From positions 1-22,455 of the IMG/VR virus record IMGVR_UViG_3300017714_000194: 22,455 nucleotides of DNA; one strand, written 5' to 3'. This document shows, piece after piece, positions 4,009 to 17,923 of this stretch (position 1 is the stretch's first letter; every line of letters begins with the position of its first letter). The DNA comes from a virus. The translations under genes and the position numbers were made by a program. The notes below the pieces were generated by a model. It ran no database searches. It worked only from the letters and a program-made list of their open reading frames with translations, and was not told the DNA's origin.

Positions 4009-4680
4009 CTAATAGTCTTTTATCATTGTTAATATTCCACGATAAACCATTTCCGAGTCTGACTTAGCACTTACTATGTATTTATGACAAGGAATTCCTG
4101 TATCATTTAACTTCTGAAGACCGGGTTTGAATGACTCAAATATAGGATGATTTTCTATCTTACCTTTATGATTATATTTGTCTTTCCATAAATCATATTT
4201 GTTAGCCCAAAGACCAACAGCCAAAGGAAAGTCTTCATCTTTTTTCTTCTTTTTCCTACCCCCAATAGTCCAATGTGTTTCACATAAAGTATCAACTAAG
4301 AAAGTCCAAGATAGTTGTTGTTCAATGTCATAATGTTTATCTAAATGTCTATCATCAAATAAAAAAATAACATACTTTACATTTCTACTTCGTAAATCTC
4401 TAACCCACTCTTCCCAATATACAGTCTGCCCCCCAATATCAGCAGTTTTTATTGTGTGTGCATCTCCATCAAGTTTAACAAATTTTCTAGTTGGTTTATG
4501 TCTGCCAACTGTTCTTTTTTTAATTTCAGGAACTTCTCCTCTTGTCATTAGTTGTTTGTGAAGAGTAGTCTTACCTGCCTGACTAGCCCCATAAACTCCA
4601 AAATTGATAGCATGAAGCCTATTATACAATTTATTCATGGCTTCAACCATTAATATTGCAAACCCCGCCATAACTGACAT
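4009..4680 (-). CDS. Arf/Ras-superfamily small GTPase
   Basis: 223 residues with a complete GTP-binding set. G1 is GASQAGKT (31-38). Switch I is a Thr-containing stretch (57-64). G3 is ADIGGQ (80-85), with the Gln that is catalytic in Arf/Ras. G4 is NKYD (160-163) and G5 is VSAKS (203-207). The DxGGQ form of G3 is the Arf, G-alpha and SR-beta type rather than the DTAGQ of Ras. Residues 1-24 before G1 are a Met/Ala/Leu-rich helix that could be amphipathic, as in Arf. A Lys-rich insert (GRKKKKKDED, 141-150) separates G3 from G4. It is transcribed right after two small membrane proteins, which suggests action at a membrane. The start follows GAGGTAG at normal spacing. Confidence 0.85.
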   Translation of the reverse strand: MSVMAGFAILMVEAMNKLYNRLHAINFGVYGASQAGKTTLHKQLMTRGEVPEIKKRTVGRHKPTRKFVKLDGDAHTIKTADIGGQTVYWEEWVRDLRSRNVKYVIFLFDDRHLDKHYDIEQQLSWTFLVDTLCETHWTIGGRKKKKKDEDFPLAVGLWANKYDLWKDKYNHKGKIENHPIFESFKPGLQKLNDTGIPCHKYIVSAKSDSEMVYRGILTMIKDY

Positions 4681-6212: not shown

Positions 6213-7583
6213 TTAAGCACTCTTTAGGTTGGTGATTTTACCTTGTCCCTTAAAGAAAGAACAGCCAGTTTCAGCCATAGTTCGGTACATACCTTGGTTT
6301 CCAAGTTTACCTACACCGAATGGGTTTCCACTAGTAATACCATCTTCAAAGTATTCTGTTGGCTTCATAACTGATAGCCACAGATGGTCTGTGTCAAGTA
6401 TTAGTATATCACTTAGGTTTACATTTGTACCACCAGTTGATGGCATGTCTTTACATGGTATGATTGGTATATCATAATATGTAGCAACTCTGAAACCTGC
6501 TTCCTGACCCTTTACTCCACGAACACCATTATGGGAAGGAACGATTTCTTTCCTGTCCATAAATCTCTCTTGGCTTTGTAGTAAGTCAGCAATTGCTTGT
6601 ACAGTATCATATCCTGTTAGAATAACTTTCGGGTTTCCACCATTCTGACGGATTCTACGAATCATGCTGTTCAATAGACTTAGAGATAGAACTCTAGCGT
6701 CATTAGTAGCATAACCTGCTCCGAAATCAACTTCAGAATCTAAGAAAGATGCTGTTCCAGTAGCGGCTTCATTGTTTCCGTGTGTACCACTGATTGTTAC
6801 AGTTCTACTTGTTCCGAATAGTTTTACAACATCAGCAACAACTGCTGGTGTTCCTGAATCATTCTTTCCAGTAGCAAGTAAATCTGCTTCATACATTGCA
6901 GCGATTTCAGCAGCAGATGAAACAATCTTCATTAGAGAAGTATAATTTCTCTCAATTGTTGTTGCTGTACCGTCATCGTATCTTTCAAGAGGCATTAATA
7001 GCATCTTGTTTTGTGTTTCTGCGTGATGCTTACCCATGTCTTCACGGATAATAGAACGTATATCGCCAACACCGTCATCGATTGCAGCAAGTTCCATACC
7101 AAGTTCTGAGAACTCGAATAGATGTGCAACTGTTTTAGGGCTAACATATAGTTTAGCATACTGTGGTGCAATTGGAGGAATATCATTTCCTGTTCCAAGT
7201 GTTGCGTTTTCTGCAACTCCACCAAGTCTGTCTGCTCTAGGTGCGGCTGCGCCTTGCGCTCCTGTTCCTATTGCAATACTGCTTCCTGAACCACCCTCTG
7301 CTCTGTCTTTCAAAACTCTCCATCCACTAGATGTGTATGGTCTTTTTGCAAGCATAGCAAGTGCGTTAACTTCTTGATTTAACATTGACCATACTTTTTG
7401 TCCGTAAAGAACATTGTATAGGTCACCTAATCCACTAGCAGCAGTGAATCCCTGCGTACTGTCGTGTGGTGTTCCGAAACCTCCAACAACACCAGCACTC
7501 TTCAATAGGGCATTACCCGATGCGCCAGCGTAACCGTAAGTTGCTGCTTCTAAATCTTTCATTGTGTTAATATATCCACTCAT
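6213..7583 (-). CDS. Major capsid protein, HK97 fold (probable)
   Basis: 456 residues, Gly/Ala/Ser-rich. An N-terminal arm (1-60) is followed by an E-loop-like Gly/Ser/Ala stretch (about 95-115), a long helix region (about 165-195, EFSELGMELAAIDDGVGDIR), and an A-domain-like region. That region contains NPKVILTGYDTVQAIADLL, then VATYYDIPIIPCKDM and DILILDTDHLWLSVMKP. The sequence 'ydiPIipckdmp ... iLilDtdhlwl' is typical of HK97-like capsid C-terminal halves. It follows the protease/scaffold gene by one base between stop and start, the canonical order. The start has an excellent AAGGAGAG ribosome-binding site. No obvious protease cleavage site was identified in the N-arm. Confidence 0.85.
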   Translation of the reverse strand: MSGYINTMKDLEAATYGYAGASGNALLKSAGVVGGFGTPHDSTQGFTAASGLGDLYNVLYGQKVWSMLNQEVNALAMLAKRPYTSSGWRVLKDRAEGGSGSSIAIGTGAQGAAAPRADRLGGVAENATLGTGNDIPPIAPQYAKLYVSPKTVAHLFEFSELGMELAAIDDGVGDIRSIIREDMGKHHAETQNKMLLMPLERYDDGTATTIERNYTSLMKIVSSAAEIAAMYEADLLATGKNDSGTPAVVADVVKLFGTSRTVTISGTHGNNEAATGTASFLDSEVDFGAGYATNDARVLSLSLLNSMIRRIRQNGGNPKVILTGYDTVQAIADLLQSQERFMDRKEIVPSHNGVRGVKGQEAGFRVATYYDIPIIPCKDMPSTGGTNVNLSDILILDTDHLWLSVMKPTEYFEDGITSGNPFGVGKLGNQGMYRTMAETGCSFFKGQGKITNLKSA

Positions 7584-7584
7584 T

Positions 7585-8250
7585 TTACTTCACTCTCCTT
7601 GCGAGGTTGTGTATGTCTCCCCATGACATCTCAGCGACCGCACTAGCAGTTGTTGGGAATCCTTCAGGAAGTGACATTGCAACTTCCTGTGCTTTCATTA
7701 TCTCATTGTCTTTCTCTGTTAGAGATTTACGTAGTACAGCAAACTCTTCTTTGAGTGCTGTAACTTCAGCATGAGCATCGTACTCTGCTCTATCAGCAGC
7801 AGATTTCTTCATATCCATCTCTGCGACAAAACGAGCCTCGAACTGCTTTGATAAATTATCATACGCAAGTTTCTCCATCTGCTCTGCTCTGAACTGCTCA
7901 TATGCCTTTTCAACATTTTCTGTTGATAGGTCTAATGTTGAGAAATCAGTAGGGGCTAATCCCTTACCAATTGGGCCTAATTCTTTAGGTGCAGTAGTGG
8001 GTCTTCCACCGCTAACTACCTCAGTACCAGCCTCGTAGTCTCTTGTTGAATCTTCATCAAGAGCCTTCTCTTCCATTTCAGCGTCCATAGTTTCTACCAT
8101 TTCTTCTTCTTCTTTCATCGTTTCTTCATCTTCTTTCATTTCTTCTTCATCCTTATACATTTCTTTAGACACATCTTCTGTTGTGACTGATTGTACTTCT
8201 TTAAGTAAACCATTCAATTCTTCCAATGCTTTTTCCAATTTTTCCGTCAT
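7585..8250 (-). CDS. Nested in-frame scaffold protein with its own start
   Basis: Inside the protease gene an in-frame ATG (8248-8250, residue M181) is preceded by a perfect GGAGGT at six bases. It is among the two strongest ribosome-binding sites in the window. Translation from here gives a 221-residue scaffold starting MTEKLEKALEELNGLL, with no protease domain. It is coiled-coil and acidic and ends in the MSWGDIHNL segment. The arrangement matches known nested scaffolds in phage protease genes (lambda Nu3 within C) and herpesvirus UL26.5. It would supply excess scaffold over protease. Sequence evidence is strong; expression is inferred. Confidence 0.75.
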   Translation of the reverse strand: MTEKLEKALEELNGLLKEVQSVTTEDVSKEMYKDEEEMKEDEETMKEEEEMVETMDAEMEEKALDEDSTRDYEAGTEVVSGGRPTTAPKELGPIGKGLAPTDFSTLDLSTENVEKAYEQFRAEQMEKLAYDNLSKQFEARFVAEMDMKKSAADRAEYDAHAEVTALKEEFAVLRKSLTEKDNEIMKAQEVAMSLPEGFPTTASAVAEMSWGDIHNLARRVK

Positions 8251-8790
8251 GTTGTTACCTCCTTTTTCGTGTTTCAATATGTCGAATTTTGCTTCGGGAT
8301 TAATCCCTTTTTCACAGATAGTTACTTCATGTAGTTCCAAACTATCAATTTCATTATACTCTCCGTACTCATCAGATTTTCTTTCTTTTTTAGATATGGC
8401 TTGTCCACCAATACTAAATGAACGTAGAGTTCCTTTTCGAATTCCTCTAGAGATTTCTTTGGCTTTTTCTATATCGTCTCTCATTTTAATAACAACGTAA
8501 AACCCAACGTTGTCTACTCCAGTCTTATGTAAAACACCACTATTATCTCGGTACTGTTCTACTACTTCACCAACTTGTACATTAGAATGATTAGACATTA
8601 CATTTCTAAATGATGAATCTTTCATAAATCCAGTTACTGCTTTCTCTAATGCTTCTAATGTGATTAAGTCATTTTGTTTGTCAACTATTTCAATAGAAGC
8701 ATACCCACCAATAACTAGGTTTTCTGACTTAAGAATACTAAACTCATGGGAATCATTCGCCTTCATCAAAGGGGATTCCATTGCTAGCAT
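7585..8790 (-). CDS. Prohead serine protease (XkdF/HK97 type) fused to scaffold domain
   Basis: 401 residues. Residues about 15-175 match the phage prohead protease fold. GGYASIEIVDKQNDLI opens the beta core. H68 in SNHSN and S126 in RSFSIGG are the likely catalytic pair. HEVTICEKGINPEAKF (154-169) matches the closing 'EvSlv..g.NpeA' motif. Residues 181-401 are a scaffold-like region. It has a Glu/Met-rich acidic stretch (about 200-245), then long helices, then a C-terminal AEMSWGDIHNLARRVK. This last segment is the same MSW motif that starts many small proteins upstream. The enzyme would cleave scaffold and capsid proteins during prohead maturation. An earlier in-frame Met (M4) is an alternative start. 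The gene lies directly before the capsid gene. Confidence 0.82.
   Translation of the reverse strand: MLAMESPLMKANDSHEFSILKSENLVIGGYASIEIVDKQNDLITLEALEKAVTGFMKDSSFRNVMSNHSNVQVGEVVEQYRDNSGVLHKTGVDNVGFYVVIKMRDDIEKAKEISRGIRKGTLRSFSIGGQAISKKERKSDEYGEYNEIDSLELHEVTICEKGINPEAKFDILKHEKGGNNMTEKLEKALEELNGLLKEVQSVTTEDVSKEMYKDEEEMKEDEETMKEEEEMVETMDAEMEEKALDEDSTRDYEAGTEVVSGGRPTTAPKELGPIGKGLAPTDFSTLDLSTENVEKAYEQFRAEQMEKLAYDNLSKQFEARFVAEMDMKKSAADRAEYDAHAEVTALKEEFAVLRKSLTEKDNEIMKAQEVAMSLPEGFPTTASAVAEMSWGDIHNLARRVK
7588..7629 (-). other. C-terminal MSW motif of protease/scaffold
   Basis: The last 14 codons encode MSWGDIHNLARRVK, matching in place and sequence the C-terminal MSWDDIHKM of the 76-residue protein at 11631-11861. 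It also matches the N-termini of many small proteins. Phage scaffolds such as that of P22 bind the capsid protein through a C-terminal helical segment, so this is a candidate capsid-binding motif. Confidence 0.7.
8257..8262 (-). promoter_or_regulatory. Internal Shine-Dalgarno site for nested scaffold
   Basis: GGAGGT sits six bases upstream of an in-frame ATG at 8250 inside the protease gene. The codons here (Gly-Gly-Asn-Asn linker between protease and scaffold) place the site precisely at the domain boundary, as expected for a selected internal start. Confidence 0.75.
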
Positions 8791-8831: not shown

Positions 8832-11390
8832 TTACTTAGGTAATTCTAAATCGCTGTACTTATCTTCAGAAAGTTGCCAAAGATTGTCTTTAGAGTCCTT
8901 ATCTAGCATTTTTTGTTTTGTCCCTGTCCACGCTACCCAAGTTTGTTTTTCATCTAAAGGAACAACTCGGAAATGTATTCTAGTTTGAAATTTCTTTCCA
9001 TCTAATCTATATTCGTGATATCCGTCTTTCTGTACTCCAAATTCTAATTCTCCGGAATCTAATACTTTTGTACTGTTTCTAACATTAGCATTTATTATTG
9101 CTGGAAACTTTTTAGATTTGCCAAATAAATCATAAATATCAGTAGGTTCATCTATATCAATTAACCAAGACTGCCTAACATTACCACGCTCAATTATGAA
9201 ATCTATATTACCGTCTTCTCTTTGTCGTATTTCAAAAGAACCCATATTAGGCTCTTCAGACACTTTTTCAATATATTCAGGTTTAACAGAAAATTCATTT
9301 ACTCCATCAAATGCATCTTGACTTCTTAAATATTCTAATAGTTTTCTAGATTTTCCATCATATACTTGATTATATTCTTGCTGTAAATGTAATTTTACTT
9401 TATCTTCAATGTCACTAAATTTCATAGAATTATTATTATCTCTAATTATTTCTATAATTCCTGCACGCAATTTAGTTTTATCAGATTTCATAAATTTTTC
9501 TAACTGCCCCATTAATTCATCCATGGAAGCGACTGCATTTTTTTGCATCAATTCATCTCCTTTAAATCCATATAAAGTAAATCCTTCAACGTCATGTTTA
9601 CAAATAATTTCTGCTTCTCCATGAACATAATCAGTAACAATATATTTTTTAAGTTTCTTTCTATCTTTACGTTGCATTTCAGCAATTATAGATAGTGGAT
9701 TAATAATATCTTTAGGATTAAACGTTGGGAAAGTTCCACTGGTTATAGATTTCTTTGTTTTAGTAGATAATTGTTCTAATGTTTCTAATTTATCCGGAGC
9801 ATCTACTTCAGGTAATTCTATTAATTTGGCTGAATACAAACTAAATCCATCTTTCTTCTTAGTTACTTCATCGACTTTAACTCTAATAATTGTACCAACA
9901 TCAACATGTATTTTAGTGTTAAGAGCCTTACCAACTGGTAAGTAATCTTTACCGTCTAATTCTATTGTTTTATTATTTCTAGTATCTTCTGCTGTTAATG
10001 GTCCGACTCCCATAGTGTAAGAATGTAGGCCACTTTTGGTTTTTTTATCATCTAAAACCATAACATCTAAATCAACATAATTTTTCCATTTAATCCATTT
10101 AGGATTTTTCTTCTTACCAATGTAATATGTTGATTCGATATCTTTTATGACTACTCCTTCTGCCGTAGGCATTTCCATAATTTTTTTAGCATATTCTCCT
10201 ACTTCCTCCATAGAGTCAGCAATTCTAGTATCTTTCTTAGAAGGGAATGCTAGAGCATCTGATGAATGTTGAGCATATTGGTAAAGCATAATATTTATTC
10301 TTTCTTTCAGAGTTTCGTCTGTTAAGTCTTTACCTTCGTGTTTCATCACATCAAAAGCGTGCGCTCTAAGAGTTGCACCTTCTAATTTCTTCTTGAATAT
10401 ATGAGTAATAACATCTGCTCTGTGTAGGGATTCTTCACCCTTAAACAATAGTAGTTCAGCATCAAGGATACAATCTCCGAACGCTTTCTTTTCCATTTTT
10501 TCAACTTGTTCAGGACATTTATCAGTTATGTCTTTTTTATTGTAAGAATAAATAGTTACTTTATTTTCAAATTTATGAATTTGTATTCGCATACCGTCAT
10601 ACTTTTCTTGTACAACATATTCTCCACTAAGTCCTTTTATTGCTTTCATATCATCTAAATCAAAAATTCTATACATTGGTTTATTGGGTATTAAAAAATC
10701 GATATCTTGTTTTTCATCTTCAGATTTAGCAATATCTAAATCTTCTAAGTTTTCCCACTTTTCCTCTGAATATTGACTTTGATATACTTGCTCTAATAGT
10801 TTCATTGCATTTCCAAACTTACCCTTAACTCGCTTACTATCTTTATCGTCTCCATAATGTTCTATAATATACAATGGAATATCTTTGGGTGATATATCTA
10901 ATCCATTAGCACCATCAGTGATTTCATCAGGTTTTAATTCTGACTCCTCCCATGCTTTTTTTGGTAAAGCAGAACTGTGACTTCTCATAGCATAATGAAT
11001 AAAGGAAGCAAACACTGCTTCATCATTCAATAATACACTAAGTACTTTATCTCCTAATTGTTTAGAAAACGGGTCACTAATTTCATTTGATTCAAAACGC
11101 ATAGTTTTTATTGCTTCGTATATTTTTTTTGCCGTAGTAGATTTAGCATCTATGGCTTGGTCATCAAATAAAATCTTTTCATCTAAATATTTTTTGAGTT
11201 CTCTAGAAAATTCACTCAGTCCATCAAAATTATCTCTAATAGATTTGACCATTGTTTTCCATTTACTGCCATACTCTTTTGGATTTTCTTTAGCAGATAA
11301 ATAGGAATAACGTACCCTTTCAAAAAAATCTAAAACTCTTTTAGTAAGGGCTTTAGTATCCTTCTCAAATGCTATTCCCGAAGTAGACAT
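8832..11390 (-). CDS. ATP-dependent DNA ligase with a large C-terminal extension
   Basis: 852 residues, longer than typical archaeal ligases (about 550-610). An N-terminal helical DNA-binding-type domain (1-235) precedes the nucleotidyltransferase core: motif I KYDGMR (263-268, Lys263 forms the lysyl-AMP), motif III ILDAEL (308-313), IIIa AHAFDVM (343-349), IV EGVVIK (411-416) and V KWIKWK (431-436). An OB-fold region follows (about 440-525). Residues about 550-852 are extra. They include a helical winged-helix-like segment (about 640-700) and a beta-rich end (about 715-830). The end vaguely resembles the 3'-phosphoesterase domain of bacterial LigD but lacks its His residues. The gene lies in the morphogenesis block, next to the protease, which is unusual for a replication/repair enzyme. 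Confidence 0.88.
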   Translation of the reverse strand: MSTSGIAFEKDTKALTKRVLDFFERVRYSYLSAKENPKEYGSKWKTMVKSIRDNFDGLSEFSRELKKYLDEKILFDDQAIDAKSTTAKKIYEAIKTMRFESNEISDPFSKQLGDKVLSVLLNDEAVFASFIHYAMRSHSSALPKKAWEESELKPDEITDGANGLDISPKDIPLYIIEHYGDDKDSKRVKGKFGNAMKLLEQVYQSQYSEEKWENLEDLDIAKSEDEKQDIDFLIPNKPMYRIFDLDDMKAIKGLSGEYVVQEKYDGMRIQIHKFENKVTIYSYNKKDITDKCPEQVEKMEKKAFGDCILDAELLLFKGEESLHRADVITHIFKKKLEGATLRAHAFDVMKHEGKDLTDETLKERINIMLYQYAQHSSDALAFPSKKDTRIADSMEEVGEYAKKIMEMPTAEGVVIKDIESTYYIGKKKNPKWIKWKNYVDLDVMVLDDKKTKSGLHSYTMGVGPLTAEDTRNNKTIELDGKDYLPVGKALNTKIHVDVGTIIRVKVDEVTKKKDGFSLYSAKLIELPEVDAPDKLETLEQLSTKTKKSITSGTFPTFNPKDIINPLSIIAEMQRKDRKKLKKYIVTDYVHGEAEIICKHDVEGFTLYGFKGDELMQKNAVASMDELMGQLEKFMKSDKTKLRAGIIEIIRDNNNSMKFSDIEDKVKLHLQQEYNQVYDGKSRKLLEYLRSQDAFDGVNEFSVKPEYIEKVSEEPNMGSFEIRQREDGNIDFIIERGNVRQSWLIDIDEPTDIYDLFGKSKKFPAIINANVRNSTKVLDSGELEFGVQKDGYHEYRLDGKKFQTRIHFRVVPLDEKQTWVAWTGTKQKMLDKDSKDNLWQLSEDKYSDLELPK

Positions 11391-11630: not shown

Positions 11631-11861
11631 TCACCCTGCATTCTCCACCATTTTGTGAATATCATCCCACGACATTTTGCCAATAGTATCTCCTGTTGGC
11701 GCAATGCTATTATTACTGATAGAAGGAGTTGGAGTATTATGTACAACTAACCCGGCTTTCATCAATACATTGTCTTTATTGTATACTTGTTGTTCTAGAG
11801 ATTTAACTCTATCAACTAGTTCTTTCATTAGTAGTAACATTTCATTATTTTCTTCACTCAT
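11631..11861 (-). CDS. Short coiled-coil protein ending in the MSW motif (possible second scaffold)
   Basis: 76 residues. Residues 5-30 form a coiled coil (NEMLLLMKELVDRVKSLEQQ), residues 40-58 are a Pro/Ser/Thr-rich linker, and residues 63-76 are MSWDDIHKMVENAG. That end nearly repeats the C-terminus of the protease/scaffold protein (MSWGDIHNL). Same motif, same end, same preceding linker style: it may be a mini-scaffold or an assembly adaptor that uses the same binding surface. Its ATG overlaps the preceding gene's stop (ATGA, 11858-11861) after AGAGGTGA. Confidence 0.6.
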   Translation of the reverse strand: MSEENNEMLLLMKELVDRVKSLEQQVYNKDNVLMKAGLVVHNTPTPSISNNSIAPTGDTIGKMSWDDIHKMVENAG

Positions 11862-12193
11862 TTTCTTTCACCTCTTGTTTTTGCATTTCTAGCCCTAAAT
11901 TGTGCCAGTAATTCTGATTCGTTTTCTTCCGTTCTTTTAGCGGCTTCTGCATCTTGACCTGTGGAAGTTTTAGTTGCTATTAATTCGTCTGCGTGATACA
12001 ACCTAACACTTTTTTCATTGTGTGGATTTTGAGTCATTAGTTTTCCATCGGGCATCTTATGTGTTTCACCAAACCATTCTTTACCATCTTTAGTATAATG
12101 AGGTACGCCTTGTTTTTTCTCTACGTTACCGTATGTTTCACATGGGGTTTTTCCACAACCACAATTTTTCTTAAGTATATTTTCCCAACTCAT
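11858..12193 (-). CDS. MSW-tagged small protein with Cys cluster and HYTKDGK domain
   Basis: 111 residues: an MSWENILKK N-terminus, then CGCGKTPC (C11, C13, C18), then PHYTKDGKEWFGETHKMPDG (31-50) and a charged helical tail. The 'HY-x-DGK-W-G-TH-MPDG' pattern resembles short domains I recall in unrelated phage and giant-virus proteins, usually without this N-terminus. That would fit a tag joined to a stand-alone cargo domain; this recall is unverified. The start uses AAGGTGATTTAGAATG, whose DNA is identical to that of the next gene upstream. Likely zinc- or metal-binding; function unknown. Confidence 0.6.
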   Translation of the reverse strand: MSWENILKKNCGCGKTPCETYGNVEKKQGVPHYTKDGKEWFGETHKMPDGKLMTQNPHNEKSVRLYHADELIATKTSTGQDAEAAKRTEENESELLAQFRARNAKTRGERK

Positions 12194-12206
12194 TCTAAAT
12201 CACCTT
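12182..12206 (-). repeat. 25-bp exact repeat over ribosome-binding site and MSW start (copy 1)
   Basis: This is identical over 25 bp to 12503-12527. It spans GGTGAT, the spacer, the ATG and the first MSW-E codons of the 111-residue gene. The two genes' bodies are unrelated. In this copy the upstream gene's stop is the TGA inside GGTGAT. Confidence 0.85.
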
Positions 12207-12514
12207 CTACCGTAATTCTCAAACACTTCTTCTTCATCATCTAACGCATTTCTTAATTTTACAATATAAGAATAAAAGTCTATATTATCTAATATTACAT
12301 ATATTTCCTCAGCAACGCTATGAAATAATTCACTTCTTGGTATTTTTTCATAAGTGGCAGGTTCATTTGCTTTAGGTTTACTATCTATGAACTCTTTTAA
12401 TATTTTCCTATGTTTATCCATATCCGAACTAAGCCTATTGATGTAGTTGTGTAATTCGTGAGAATAGACTATTTTCTCACTTCTATCTTTTTTTACTATA
12501 TCTTCCCAACTCAT
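12200..12514 (-). CDS. MSW-tagged small helical protein
   Basis: 104 residues starting MSWEDIVKK, followed by an all-helical body (SHELHNYINRLSSDMDKHRK, then SVAEEIYVILDNIDFYSYIV) and an acidic end. No Cys, membrane segment or known fold is recognised. The first codons and ribosome-binding site are DNA-identical to those of the 111-residue neighbour although the bodies differ. Its start overlaps the preceding stop (ATGA, 12511-12514). Proposed as capsid-directed cargo or an internal protein; function unknown. Confidence 0.6.
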   Translation of the reverse strand: MSWEDIVKKDRSEKIVYSHELHNYINRLSSDMDKHRKILKEFIDSKPKANEPATYEKIPRSELFHSVAEEIYVILDNIDFYSYIVKLRNALDDEEEVFENYGRR

Positions 12515-12527
12515 TCTAAATCACCTT
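12503..12527 (-). repeat. 25-bp exact repeat over ribosome-binding site and MSW start (copy 2)
   Basis: Second copy of the 12182-12206 sequence, starting the 104-residue gene. Here the same DNA is read in a different frame by the upstream gene (ending Gly-Asp-Leu-Glu-stop). The identity is therefore tied to the downstream gene's leader and tag, not to a duplicated upstream gene. Confidence 0.85.
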
Positions 12528-12837
12528 TCTTTTTTGGGTATACCATCTCTCTCATTTGTCGATATAAATTATCGTAATCTTTGCGCAGTTCCGCAGCACT
12601 AGCAAGTATGTCTAAATTTTTCTCTCTGAAACTTTCTACCTTTTTAGTAAGTATCTTATCAGATTTTACTACTTCTAATAATTCTATTTCTTTAATCACT
12701 TCTTCTAACTTAGTCATTTCTTGTCCCATAAATTCAGAAGGCTGTGTTTTTTGTAGAAGTTTTTTTAACTTTTTTTTCTGCTTAGGTTCTAATTTTTCTA
12801 GAAAATTTGACGCTTTCAATATTTCCTGCCACGCCAT
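12511..12837 (-). CDS. MSW-tagged (MAWQEILK) small coiled-coil protein
   Basis: About 108 residues from the ATG at 12835-12837. An upstream in-frame ATG (12850-12852) exists, but GGGAG directly precedes and reads into this region, and the chosen start aligns the tag MAWQEILKA with its neighbours. The body is a strongly charged helix/coiled coil (LEPKQKKKLKKLLQ, then LEEVIKEIELLEVVKS) and ends in a Tyr/Arg-rich helix and a Lys-rich tail. Function unknown; possible internal head protein. Confidence 0.58.
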   Translation of the reverse strand: MAWQEILKASNFLEKLEPKQKKKLKKLLQKTQPSEFMGQEMTKLEEVIKEIELLEVVKSDKILTKKVESFREKNLDILASAAELRKDYDNLYRQMREMVYPKKKGDLE

Positions 12838-12863
12838 ACTACTATCTCCCACTACTACCTAGT

Positions 12864-13724
12864 CTAAATCTCTTCTGTTAAATTAATTTTTCTTCTTTTC
12901 CCATTTTGTACAGGGAAACCATGATTAATTATGTCTGCATTAGTTAACATTTTTCTAAATTTTACCCTTATTTCAGGAGTTGCATTTTTCCACATATTTT
13001 CAACCATATCTAATGCTTCTGATAATTGCCCTACACTATCTCTTTCGAATGCATCATCTCCTAGAGTTTCGTAGATATCTCCGATATTTTCTAATTCTTC
13101 TTCGTCTTCAACTTCCATCCAATCTGAAAGACTAAGCGTTAATTGACTAAATTTTTCTAAGTCAGACAGTCTAGAACCTCTCAATGTAACTTTACCTACC
13201 GCATTTAAGGAATTTTTGAAAGCAGAAACTGCTCTGCGGTATTTTAATTCAGATAGTGTACTACGAGTTCTACTGGTATTTGGTAATGTATCTAATAATT
13301 CTCTAAAGATATCATCACTGTCTAAATTGTTGTATCTCCTAAATGTTTCACTAGCACTTCCATCACGGTTTTGTTCATAGAAAATTAACTTGAATGCGGA
13401 GGGCATTCTATTTATATTTTCTAAACCCGCAAGAATACGATTTACTACGTTCTTAGGCTTGAATATTAAGTCTTGAGTTAACACCAATTTTTCTCTAACA
13501 CTATTATCATTAATGTCTTTGGTCTTAGAAAAAATTTCTAATAATTCTTCTAACTCCTTTTCTACATTTTTAGTGCTAGTTTTTGTATCTTCAATTTTAA
13601 TTCCGTGGGTTGCTTCCATCATAGCAGCACTAGGTTTTTTACCACCAAATAATGTATCGGCTACACTACTAATCGTAGATTCCTTTTTCTTTTTTTTTAA
13701 AATCTCAAAAAAAGAATCGTCCAT
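12864..13724 (-). CDS. Helical protein with degenerate MSW-like start (DSFFEILKKKKK)
   Basis: About 286 residues from the ATG at 13722-13724, which follows AGGTGA at five bases. An in-frame GTG at 13733 is within that site and is rejected. The N-terminus MDDSFFEILKKKKKES has the '[FW]-x-x-[IL]-[LI]-K-K-K' shape of the tag without the Trp. The body is all helical (KNVEKELEELLEIFSKTKD, ALDMVENMWKNATPEIRVKF) with an acidic patch (EVEDEEELEN) and a basic C-terminus (NGKRRKINLTEEI). No family is recognised. It is the largest member of the tagged cluster; a virion-internal role is inferred. Confidence 0.55.
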   Translation of the reverse strand: MDDSFFEILKKKKKESTISSVADTLFGGKKPSAAMMEATHGIKIEDTKTSTKNVEKELEELLEIFSKTKDINDNSVREKLVLTQDLIFKPKNVVNRILAGLENINRMPSAFKLIFYEQNRDGSASETFRRYNNLDSDDIFRELLDTLPNTSRTRSTLSELKYRRAVSAFKNSLNAVGKVTLRGSRLSDLEKFSQLTLSLSDWMEVEDEEELENIGDIYETLGDDAFERDSVGQLSEALDMVENMWKNATPEIRVKFRKMLTNADIINHGFPVQNGKRRKINLTEEI

Positions 13725-13963: not shown

Positions 13964-14119
13964 TTACCCCTGTACCCATTCGATTGCTTTTTCCATTCCC
14001 GGTATTTTTCTACCGCAATGCTTACAATTACCATCGTCATCCATCATCATTTCTCTTTCTGACTTTGTTCTCCAACACAAACAATCATCACGGTTTTTTA
14101 GTAGTTTTTTCCAACTCAT
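13964..14119 (-). CDS. MSW-tagged 51-residue zinc-ribbon protein
   Basis: A short gene below the usual length cut-offs. It has ATG at 14117-14119 after an excellent GGGGGAGA ribosome-binding site, and TAA at 13964-13966. The product begins MSWKKLLKNRDD and then has two Cys pairs, CLC (13, 15) and CKHC (32, 35), with a Met/Asp-rich spacer between them. It fits a small zinc ribbon. The tag matches its neighbours and it fills the gap between the 74-residue and 84-residue genes. Function unknown; possibly nucleic-acid-binding cargo. Confidence 0.68.
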   Translation of the reverse strand: MSWKKLLKNRDDCLCWRTKSEREMMMDDDGNCKHCGRKIPGMEKAIEWVQG

Positions 14120-14190: not shown

Positions 14191-14445
14191 CTATTTGCTA
14201 GACTTATTCCCGTGACATTTCCATTTTCTACGACTTAGATTATTAGGACTATCAGGGTCTTTTCTCCAATCCCCTTTTATCTTATTTGACCTTGCACAAT
14301 AAGCATCACCTTTACTTGTACCGGGTCTAATTCTATCTCCGCCATCTTTCGCTTTACCAGCCTGACCATAAGAAGTTCCTTTTGGAGAGACAAATCTTTT
14401 ACCCTTGTTAGGTTTTTTCTTTTTCAAAACTTCTTCCCAACTCAT
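14191..14445 (-). CDS. MSW-tagged basic protein with CARS...W...WKCHG domain
   Basis: 84 residues: MSWEEVLKKKK, a basic Gly/Lys linker, then GDAYCARSNKIKGDWRKDPD (47-66) and SPNNLSRRKWKCHG (66-79). C50, C77 and H78 could bind a metal. The 'YCARS ... G-W ... SPNNLSRRKWKC' arrangement recurs, as I recall, in small proteins of unrelated phages and giant viruses, where it is not preceded by MSW. That suggests a cargo domain with an added tag (recall unverified). Strongly basic, so DNA or RNA contact is plausible. GAGGG precedes the start. Confidence 0.6.
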   Translation of the reverse strand: MSWEEVLKKKKPNKGKRFVSPKGTSYGQAGKAKDGGDRIRPGTSKGDAYCARSNKIKGDWRKDPDSPNNLSRRKWKCHGNKSSK

Positions 14446-14451
14446 AATCTT

Positions 14452-14715
14452 TCAGCCCTCTATTCTTTGGTAGACTTTTTTTCCTGCTTTTGTTCTAGGA
14501 ACATGTTGCTTGCCTTTCTTTCTACCTGCTCTTTTCTTTCTGTTCTCTGCGGCTCTTTGTTTGGGAGTTAATGACTCAGCAACTGCTCTAGGAGCATATC
14601 TTCCTTTCTTTCCTTTTCCTCCCATATCTACCCAATCTTCATCTTTCCATTCTACCATAGACTGTTGTGAGGGTTGTAAATTTTTCTTTTTAATCAAGTC
14701 AAACCAATTAATCAC
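14452..14715 (-). CDS. Tag-bearing (MINWFDLIKKK) basic small protein, GTG start
   Basis: About 87 residues from a GTG start at 14713-14715. The open frame extends to an ATG at 14749-14751, but the GTG follows GGTGG, aligns the tag (INWFDLIKKK) with the neighbours, and overlaps the preceding stop by 8 bases (GTGATTAA). The body contains a very basic stretch: APRAVAESLTPKQRAAENRK (41-60) followed by a Lys/Arg/Gly-rich region to the end. 'VAESLTPKQR.AENRKKRAG' resembles small basic phage proteins I recall, unverified. Likely nucleic-acid binding; function unknown. Confidence 0.6.
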   Translation of the reverse strand: MINWFDLIKKKNLQPSQQSMVEWKDEDWVDMGGKGKKGRYAPRAVAESLTPKQRAAENRKKRAGRKKGKQHVPRTKAGKKVYQRIEG

Positions 14716-14908
14716 GATACCCACCACCTGCTTTCTTGTATCTTGCAGCAAGTAACTGTGCTTTTCTTGCAGACCATTGACCTTTTCTACCGCCTTTGCT
14801 TCCTGCTTTTATTCGTTGGAATATCCTCTTTCTCATACCGGGCTTAGTATAATTACCCGCTTGGTTAACTGTTGATTTCTTTCTCTTAATAACGTCAAAC
14901 CAACTCAT
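14708..14908 (-). CDS. MSW-tagged basic protein with GQWSARKAQLL domain
   Basis: 66 residues: MSWFDVIKRKK then a compact basic domain, YTKPGMRKRIFQRIKAGSKG (20-39) and GQWSARKAQLLAARYKKAGG (43-62), ending GGYRD. This 'YT.P.LR..I..GSKGG..GQWSARKAQLL...Y...GGGY' module is, from memory, a small domain of unknown function (I recall it as DUF5872-like) found alone in giant viruses and phages. Here it is joined to the MSW tag. Basic and probably nucleic-acid binding. The start shares TAATG with the portal stop after AGGAG. Confidence 0.65.
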   Translation of the reverse strand: MSWFDVIKRKKSTVNQAGNYTKPGMRKRIFQRIKAGSKGGRKGQWSARKAQLLAARYKKAGGGYRD

Positions 14909-16552: not shown

Positions 16553-17923
16553 CTACTCTTCCTCCTCCATCTTGTGGATAACATCGACCACTTCGTTATC
16601 CTTCAAAACTTCTTCTAATTTATCCATAGTAGAATTTTTATCATTATCATAATATTTTACAACACTATCTATGTCAATCTCATACTTTGCGAAATCATAG
16701 TTCTTATCATCCTTATGATTCTCATATTTCATTAATTTAAAGAGTTCTACCTTACGTGCCTTGTACCAATTTGCTTTCTTATGACTTTTTTTCATCCTAA
16801 GTAACTCTAACAATATTTCAGCATTTTTCTTTTTTAATCTAAAATATGGTAAGCATTTGTTAAGTATCTCTCCAACATCATTTCTAGAATAAAAATTTAA
16901 TCTATTAATTGGTTTAGTATCTTGTGGAGATTTTTGGTCTAAATGTAATCTCCCACATCCTAGAGACTTGTGCATTTCTAACATGAATGCTTTCCCTCTG
17001 TCTCCAGTTGCAACTAACCCGACTCTAGGATTATGATTTTTATCCATAGTAATGTAGCCATCTGAATCTATGAAAGCCGCAGTATATGCATAAATATCCT
17101 TTTTTATTTCATCACTCATCTTATACAAAGCACCATTAACAATAGTAATATTTTGTGTCTTAGCCAATTTGGAAATCATTCGTGGAGAAGATTTACGTAA
17201 CAAATTATCCGGTAATCTTTCGTGTACTTGTCTAGCAGATATTCCCTGTTCTTCACTAACTAACTTAACAATATGTCTTTTCAATAATTCTTTTGGGCCT
17301 AAGTTCACAATAGATTGTTTAACTATTTTATTGAACTCGCGTTTACTGTTTGTCATCTGTTTTGTCATTTTAGAATAATCTGAAGAATATGCCATACCAT
17401 CTCTTTCTATACGCGCTTCCCAATATTTACATAAAGTATCGACAACTTCTCTTCTAGTTTTCTCATCTTGAATAAATGATAATTTAATTAATTTTTCTTC
17501 AGAACAAGTCATATCTTTCAAGGCCGACTTATATTTTTTAACCCAATATATTTTTTCTATATTAGAATCTAAATGAGTTGAATATGAAAAAATTAAATTA
17601 TCAATAGATTTTGTAACTGCTATTTTTTTCTCTCCCTTTAGAGTTCTTCTAAATTTTTTGAGTTCTTTAATCATAGCAGGTATGTCTTTACCTTCTATTT
17701 CATATTTTTTAAGTTCTAGATGTATTTCCTTTCTAGCACTAGATAACGTCAACCTATGGTCTTCTGCGAATCTTTTTTCTAATTCAAAATGGTCTGAAAT
17801 AGGTTGGTCATTTAACCAACTAAGTTTCATTTCATCAGTGAGTACTTTTTGTCTATTCTGAAGTTCTTCCTCTTGGTCAGCAAGGTCTGCTGCTTCTCTT
17901 AATTTGTTACCCTTTTCACCCAT
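16553..17923 (-). CDS. Winged-helix plus LAGLIDADG-type endonuclease-like protein
   Basis: 456 residues. Residues 1-200 are helical and charged, with an HTH-like part near 45-75 (FELEKRFAEDHRLTLSSARK). Residues about 205-268 look like a winged helix (LLKRHIVKLVSEEQGISARQ...NGALYKM). Residues about 275-400 form one LAGLIDADG module: YTAAFIDSDGYIT (280-292, acidic D286/D288), then VATGDRGKAFMLEMHKSLGC and PYFRLKKKNAEILLELLRMK. Only one motif copy is present, so a homodimer would be expected. No intein splice signals are seen. It lies between terminase and portal; the N-terminal half may be a small-terminase-type DNA binder, which is speculative. Its start follows TAGGTGATAAC, overlapping the terminase stop. 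Confidence 0.75.
   Translation of the reverse strand: MGEKGNKLREAADLADQEEELQNRQKVLTDEMKLSWLNDQPISDHFELEKRFAEDHRLTLSSARKEIHLELKKYEIEGKDIPAMIKELKKFRRTLKGEKKIAVTKSIDNLIFSYSTHLDSNIEKIYWVKKYKSALKDMTCSEEKLIKLSFIQDEKTRREVVDTLCKYWEARIERDGMAYSSDYSKMTKQMTNSKREFNKIVKQSIVNLGPKELLKRHIVKLVSEEQGISARQVHERLPDNLLRKSSPRMISKLAKTQNITIVNGALYKMSDEIKKDIYAYTAAFIDSDGYITMDKNHNPRVGLVATGDRGKAFMLEMHKSLGCGRLHLDQKSPQDTKPINRLNFYSRNDVGEILNKCLPYFRLKKKNAEILLELLRMKKSHKKANWYKARKVELFKLMKYENHKDDKNYDFAKYEIDIDSVVKYYDNDKNSTMDKLEEVLKDNEVVDVIHKMEEEE

Follow-up and report, generated by a model that had tools for sequence, protein, structure and literature searches.

A core motif common to the scaffold C-terminus and to N-terminal tags of head-module proteins in a family of marine viruses

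Short terminal peptides are already known to target proteins to capsids, and it is the MSW-type form described here, seen at a scaffold end and in a set of N-terminal tags, that we rate as new. In P22, the last 11 residues of the scaffold gp8 are needed for coat binding and dock on the coat N-arm (PMC9965877). The internal proteins of T4 are targeted to the prohead by 10-residue N-terminal tags, and this capsid-targeting sequence (CTS) binds the scaffold core rather than the shell (PMC9026906). Each of these systems is a precedent for one half of the mechanism that we propose below. Short terminal peptides also load the shells of encapsulins, which have the HK97 fold, and of microcompartments (PMC13185644). 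Both are, however, cellular compartments, and each encapsulin takes limited cargo types.

The window analyzed here is a whole stretch of viral DNA of 22,455 nucleotides (IMGVR_UViG_3300017714_000194). Its head genes share with those of T4 (IPI-III) an N-terminal tag of about 10 residues on head proteins that otherwise diverge, together with an HK97-type head and a prohead protease; that two positions (4 and 7) carry most of the targeting by the T4 CTS is a further likeness to the marine-virus tag. The T4 CTS is a propeptide that is cut by gp21 and binds the core, whereas no fixed cleavage site is seen here, and the marine-virus set is far larger, acidic on average, and has its core motif also at the C-termini of the scaffold and of a coiled-coil protein. 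In the best reading, the tag would act in the manner of the T4 CTS but be unrelated to it; we see no evidence of common descent. With P22 gp8 the window shares a scaffold that terminates in short helices, but gp8 is a separate scaffold without a protease and binds acidic coat residues via Arg/Lys. To our knowledge, no cargo tag shares the P22 scaffold motif, and we know of no scaffold that shares an encapsulin peptide.

The nearest named viruses are the Druskaviridae HVTV-1, HCTV-5 and HCTV-1 (L082-L084), whose capsid protein and portal are about 23-28% identical to those of the present family and whose genes follow the same order of portal, protease and capsid. The MSW motif was found neither at their scaffold end nor at the start of any protein encoded between portal and capsid. 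Judged by the termini as read, several head-region proteins encoded between their portal and protease carry a different repeated segment (VYVDSPDEAPE...), possibly the Druskaviridae viruses' own recruitment module; one regular-expression check for it found nothing. The virus group studied here may be, or may neighbour, the Adrikavirales (type genome PP497040; Satyavativiridae, viruses of Poseidoniales), in whose profile the capsid phylogeny resembles Druskaviridae. Such relatives suggest that the host is probably archaeal; a host and provirus search returned four capsid relatives on misbinned-looking marine MAG contigs and gave no host clue. One related record, G025 (IMGVR_UViG_3300021958_000021; 184733 bases), holds two different capsid genes of the same family at positions 70457 and 161908, and is perhaps two joined virus genomes or a very large relative. 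A search of 5.39 million papers for six tag strings found no mention of them.

The scaffold end and a second C-terminal carrier

The prohead protease/scaffold fusion (positions 7585-8790, minus strand) is a 401-residue protein with an S78 protease domain at about residues 17-173 (profile matches to Peptidase_S78 at 3.7e-8 and to S78_2/XkdF at 2.4e-7). The helical region after the protease domain and the major capsid gene directly next to it are likewise those of a Peptidase_S78-type prohead protease/scaffold. The capsid gene (6213-7583, minus strand) starts 1 nt past the protease/scaffold stop and encodes an HK97-type protein (SU10_MCP; phrog_24667), which would be the candidate receptor. Comparison of the capsid and scaffold profiles with solved structures gave no meaningful sequence relative, and a model of the scaffold alone, of moderate quality, had no useful match in the PDB. 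AlphaFold2 predicts an acidic linker at about residues 204-279 (low confidence), helices at 290-336 and 339-371 (moderate confidence) and a low-confidence hinge at 372-374, followed by the helix of the C-terminal motif, which is predicted at 390-400 with W390 as its first residue and S389 as its N-cap. The protein terminates in ...AVAEMSWGDIHNLARRVK. The preliminary description had read an MSW motif in this terminus, and rightly so: MSWGDIHNLARRVK (7588-7629, minus strand) is exactly residues 388-401, and the match is far beyond chance.

The loci around 80 capsid relatives yielded 77 readable scaffolds, the window's own not counted, and all 77 terminate in [MLIV]-[ST]-W-x-[DE]-[IVL]. Across every locus, the core phi-x-W-x-[DE]-[ILV] is present in 85 of 90 distinct scaffold ends; the other five appear cut off inside the protein, which leaves 85/85 intact ends with the core. 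W390 is the sole invariant residue among the last 44 of the scaffold in a 51-sequence alignment, and no other part of the scaffold's end is as well conserved as the motif. It is kept in every relative, down to 46% capsid identity, with the distant relatives (46-67%) having the scaffold termini KMDWSDIHKMVGG, KMDWSDINALVERLEG, EMSWDEINELVRELQ or EMSWDEIHDLFSKHKGG. The motif is also family-specific: across 2.9 million IMG/VR contigs, W-G-D-I-H-N-phi-[AT] was matched 53 times, always in the C-terminus of a scaffold next to the family's capsid gene and 11-14 residues short of the scaffold end.

The same motif (MSWDDIHKMVENAG, 11634-11675, minus strand) forms the C-terminus of a coiled-coil-like protein of 76 residues (11631-11861, minus strand), and M-x-W-x-[DEQ]-[IVL] terminates all 27 of its distinct relatives. 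Because the likeness between this protein and the scaffold spans about 22 residues across genomes (SGDTIAKMDWSEINQIIETIEG and SGDEIAKMDWSDINALVERLEG, respectively), their ends look like one longer C-terminal module.

Three neighbouring genes, all on the minus strand, may be recorded here. An 852-residue ATP-dependent DNA ligase (8832-11390) lies within the head module, between the 76-residue protein and the scaffold, as it does in most relatives read. A 223-residue protein (4009-4680), which relatives also keep to the neck/tail side of their capsid gene, has a P-loop-like GASQAGKTT and matches Roc/Arf small GTPases weakly. A 456-residue ORF between terminase and portal (16553-17923) has no Pfam match and contains FIDSDGYI, which resembles the LAGLIDADG of homing endonucleases.

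N-terminal tags and the genes that carry them

Between the portal and the scaffold, six proteins of the window begin with MSW or MAW, one of them after five residues, and two further proteins carry variants, all on the minus strand. The tags are MSWENILK (12170-12193) on a 111-residue protein (ORF 11858-12193), MSWEDIVK (12491-12514) on a 104-residue protein (ORF 12200-12514), MSWKKLLK (14096-14119) on a 51-residue protein (ORF 13964-14119), MSWEEVLK (14422-14445) on an 84-residue protein (ORF 14191-14445) and MSWFDVIK (14885-14908) on a 66-residue phrog_17747 protein (ORF 14708-14908). In a 113-residue core protein (ORF 12511-12852), MAWQEILK (12814-12837) follows MGDSS, provided that the start is correctly listed. 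A probable Phe variant, SFFEILKK (13692-13715), lies near the N-terminus of a 289-residue protein, a relative of which has MSFMDILKK; the variant (GTG)INWFDLIK (14689-14715) probably marks where the protein of the listed ORF 14452-14751 really begins.

We surveyed 1,696 predicted proteins from 81 loci, which were clustered, each cluster having one vote in the profile. The tag, M-[ST]-W-x-[DEN]-[IV]-[LIV]-K, is borne by proteins of about 51 unrelated clusters, so that several unrelated head-module proteins have one short N-terminal tag in common, as with the T4 CTS. Positions 1-4 are M, S (.87) or T (.11), W and E/K/Q/F, the search having preset M, W and S/T/A at position 2; positions 5-8 are D (.55) or E (.18), I (.66) or V (.14), L (.53), I (.31) or V (.14), and K (.95). 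A wider search also found N, D and a few other residues at position 2. Some tags lie 1-12 residues inside the listed ORF, where the start codons are uncertain. Past position 8, positions 9-14 included, we found no conservation across clusters and no conserved cleavage site.

The tags keep to the structural strand and to the side of the genome that holds the head genes. In four genomes of 95-99 kb, tags occur on 37 of 122 genes over 26 kb upstream of the capsid gene and on 1 of 86 over 32 kb downstream, with 1 of 229 on the opposite strand (Fisher p=6e-9 for the location bias). A separate count by strand gave 199 tags and 0 on the opposite strand. This confinement fits an assembly signal. A few contigs, however, do have tagged genes outside the head module. 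A blind scan with the tag pattern returned 43 contigs, of which 33 encode a capsid protein of the same family and a further 5 the family's terminase and/or portal; the matches in L131 and L150, which are unrelated contigs, look like chance and were rejected. Tagged proteins are 46-834 residues long (median 107), and those listed for two genomes have no strong transmembrane stretch. They are acidic on average, and basic DNA-binding cargo resembling the T4 internal proteins was rejected on this ground. In one relative, a tagged soluble PAP2-type phosphatase domain (L094:13582-14382; E=7e-15) is fused to a basic phrog_17747 domain, ahead of which lies a remnant second tag, KWQDILHKK; the window's 66-residue protein is the stand-alone tagged form of this domain.

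The tag is modular, also in its DNA. Between unrelated tagged genes, identity drops from 0.71 within the tag to 0.30 directly past codon 8, with nearly equal values within and between genomes, and GGTGATTTAGA-ATGAGTTGG is repeated before unrelated genes. Ser2 is encoded by AGT in 89 of 94 tags, as against 22-29% genome-wide, and part of the tag's conservation is therefore at the level of DNA. We infer that the ribosome site and tag spread as a small cassette. That the tag is mainly such a cassette (ribosome site, overlapping stop, start and ATGAGTTGG), spread by recombination and with little function as protein, would account for these three features, but we regard it as very improbable. At positions 6-8 the residues are kept through synonymous codons (Ile as ATA/ATT/ATC, Leu as CTN and TTR, Lys as AAA and AAG), and the tag protein is therefore also under selection; MSW is retained at GTG starts, and a DNA cassette leaves the C-terminal motif unexplained. 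Near-identical DNA of ribosome site and tag (GGTGATTTAGAATGAGTTGG) is found before unrelated genes in the window (12170-12214 and 12491-12530, minus strand) and in L056, L057 and L073; it contains TGA and TAG, which are possible stops of the upstream gene.

Common core and differing continuation

The tag and the scaffold end had been described as the same motif. This applies to the core M-x-W-x-[DE]-[IV], which both have, and not to the continuation, which from position 7 onward is [LIV]-K (LK) in tags and [HN]-x-[LMI]-[VA] (HN) in scaffolds. Under the full tag profile, positions 7-8 included, the scaffold ends fail and do not stand out among clusters; we accordingly rejected an identical motif in favour of a shared core. 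Tag positions 5 and 6, which were not used in selecting the tags, carry residues that fit the C-terminal profile (AUC 0.92, p=1e-22, given W and compared with other W contexts in the same proteomes), and no fit to that profile was found at positions 4, 7 and 9. When tag positions 2-6 were scored away from N-termini, the scaffold and the 76-residue protein were within the top three clusters, although single scores this high also arise in shuffled proteomes. No relative keeps the tagged proteins without the scaffold motif, and the association that the preliminary description drew between the two stands in this respect. The covariation that it proposed to look for between tags and scaffold ends is weak (position 2, p=0.03, uncorrected for descent), and we do not count it as support. 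Since positions 7-9 differ, the docking surfaces of tags and scaffold may perhaps be only partly the same.

Ser or Asp at position 2, Asp or Glu at position 5 and hydrophobic residues at positions 1 and 6 are expected of a helix with a hydrophobic staple and capping box, and SxxD/E is common. The tag and the scaffold end could thus be two look-alike motifs, both short well-capped helices (phi-S-x-x-D/E-phi), of which the scaffold end would bind the capsid protein and the tags, for example, the portal, the terminase or one another. This explanation accommodates the classic N-cap (S/T/D/N, position 2) and N3 (D/E, position 5) residues, the start of the predicted helices at Trp (W390 in the scaffold and its equivalent in a scaffold-capsid fusion) and the systematic difference between tags and scaffold at positions 7-9. 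We nevertheless consider it unlikely: capping demands no invariant Trp at N1, Met occupies position 1 in 86% of C-terminal motifs (4% in other W contexts) though no start codon is needed there, and the 76-residue protein bridges both forms, about half of its distinct motifs having K at position 8.

A proposed docking motif in head assembly

We propose, with a probability of about 0.58, that M-[S/T/D/N]-W-x-[D/E]-[I/V] is a helical docking motif of head assembly, by which scaffold and cargo use one procapsid site. A flexible hinge would precede the motif at the scaffold C-terminus, the 76-residue protein would have the same C-terminal module, and the N-terminal tag of many unrelated soluble proteins, MSWxDILK, would be a sister version. 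To judge from the sequence and the predicted helix start, Ser or Asp would cap the helix, and Trp and Ile would form the contact face. Scaffold and tagged proteins would dock at the same site in the procapsid interior, for which the capsid protein is the likeliest place, and cargo would thereby be gathered during shell formation; a later release or breakdown of the scaffold may be the work of the S78 protease. Against this proposal stand the differing positions 7-9, the ordinary capping box within the core, the DNA-level conservation of Ser2, the lack of a conserved cleavage site past the tag, the tagged genes outside the head module of a few contigs, the binding of the T4 tag to the core and the absence of the motif from the Druskaviridae.

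The capsid protein is our first choice among candidate receptors and the scaffold core our second. An AlphaFold2 model of scaffold end and capsid protein as one fusion, built at loci with both genes in one frame by translation through the stop, gave pLDDT 55, pTM 0.45 and no usable contacts. That the motif is a capsid-assembly signal, as the preliminary description suggested, agrees with the core common to scaffold and tags and with the head-gene-side confinement of the latter; the single capsid-protein surface that it also suggested is at the stage of a proposal. The tags could instead bind the scaffold or core and not the shell, as in T4, with the scaffold C-terminus self-associating via the same motif in homotypic helix clusters. 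T4 capsid-targeting sequences do have affinity for the core, and self-packing is conceivable for a motif present in scaffold, coiled-coil protein and cargo, but a helix with one Trp and about 7-11 residues offers little length for self-association and scaffold termini of the P22 type bind coat, which makes this arrangement quite improbable in our judgement.

The docking motif that we favour may extend to a family-wide "zip code", which we put forward tentatively, at somewhat less than even odds: in these tailed and probably archaeal viruses, one procapsid groove would be read by the scaffold end, by the second, small protein that resembles a scaffold and by tagged cargo, a set that is open-ended and changes fast, and an intergenomic DNA cassette would load the product of any gene joined to it. 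By one sequence rule, dozens of small marine-virus proteins become candidate head cargo, and the eight-residue signal is ready for trial as a means of filling HK97-type shells with proteins. Should one groove serve both scaffold and cargo, a virus could add internal proteins to its head by tagging genes.
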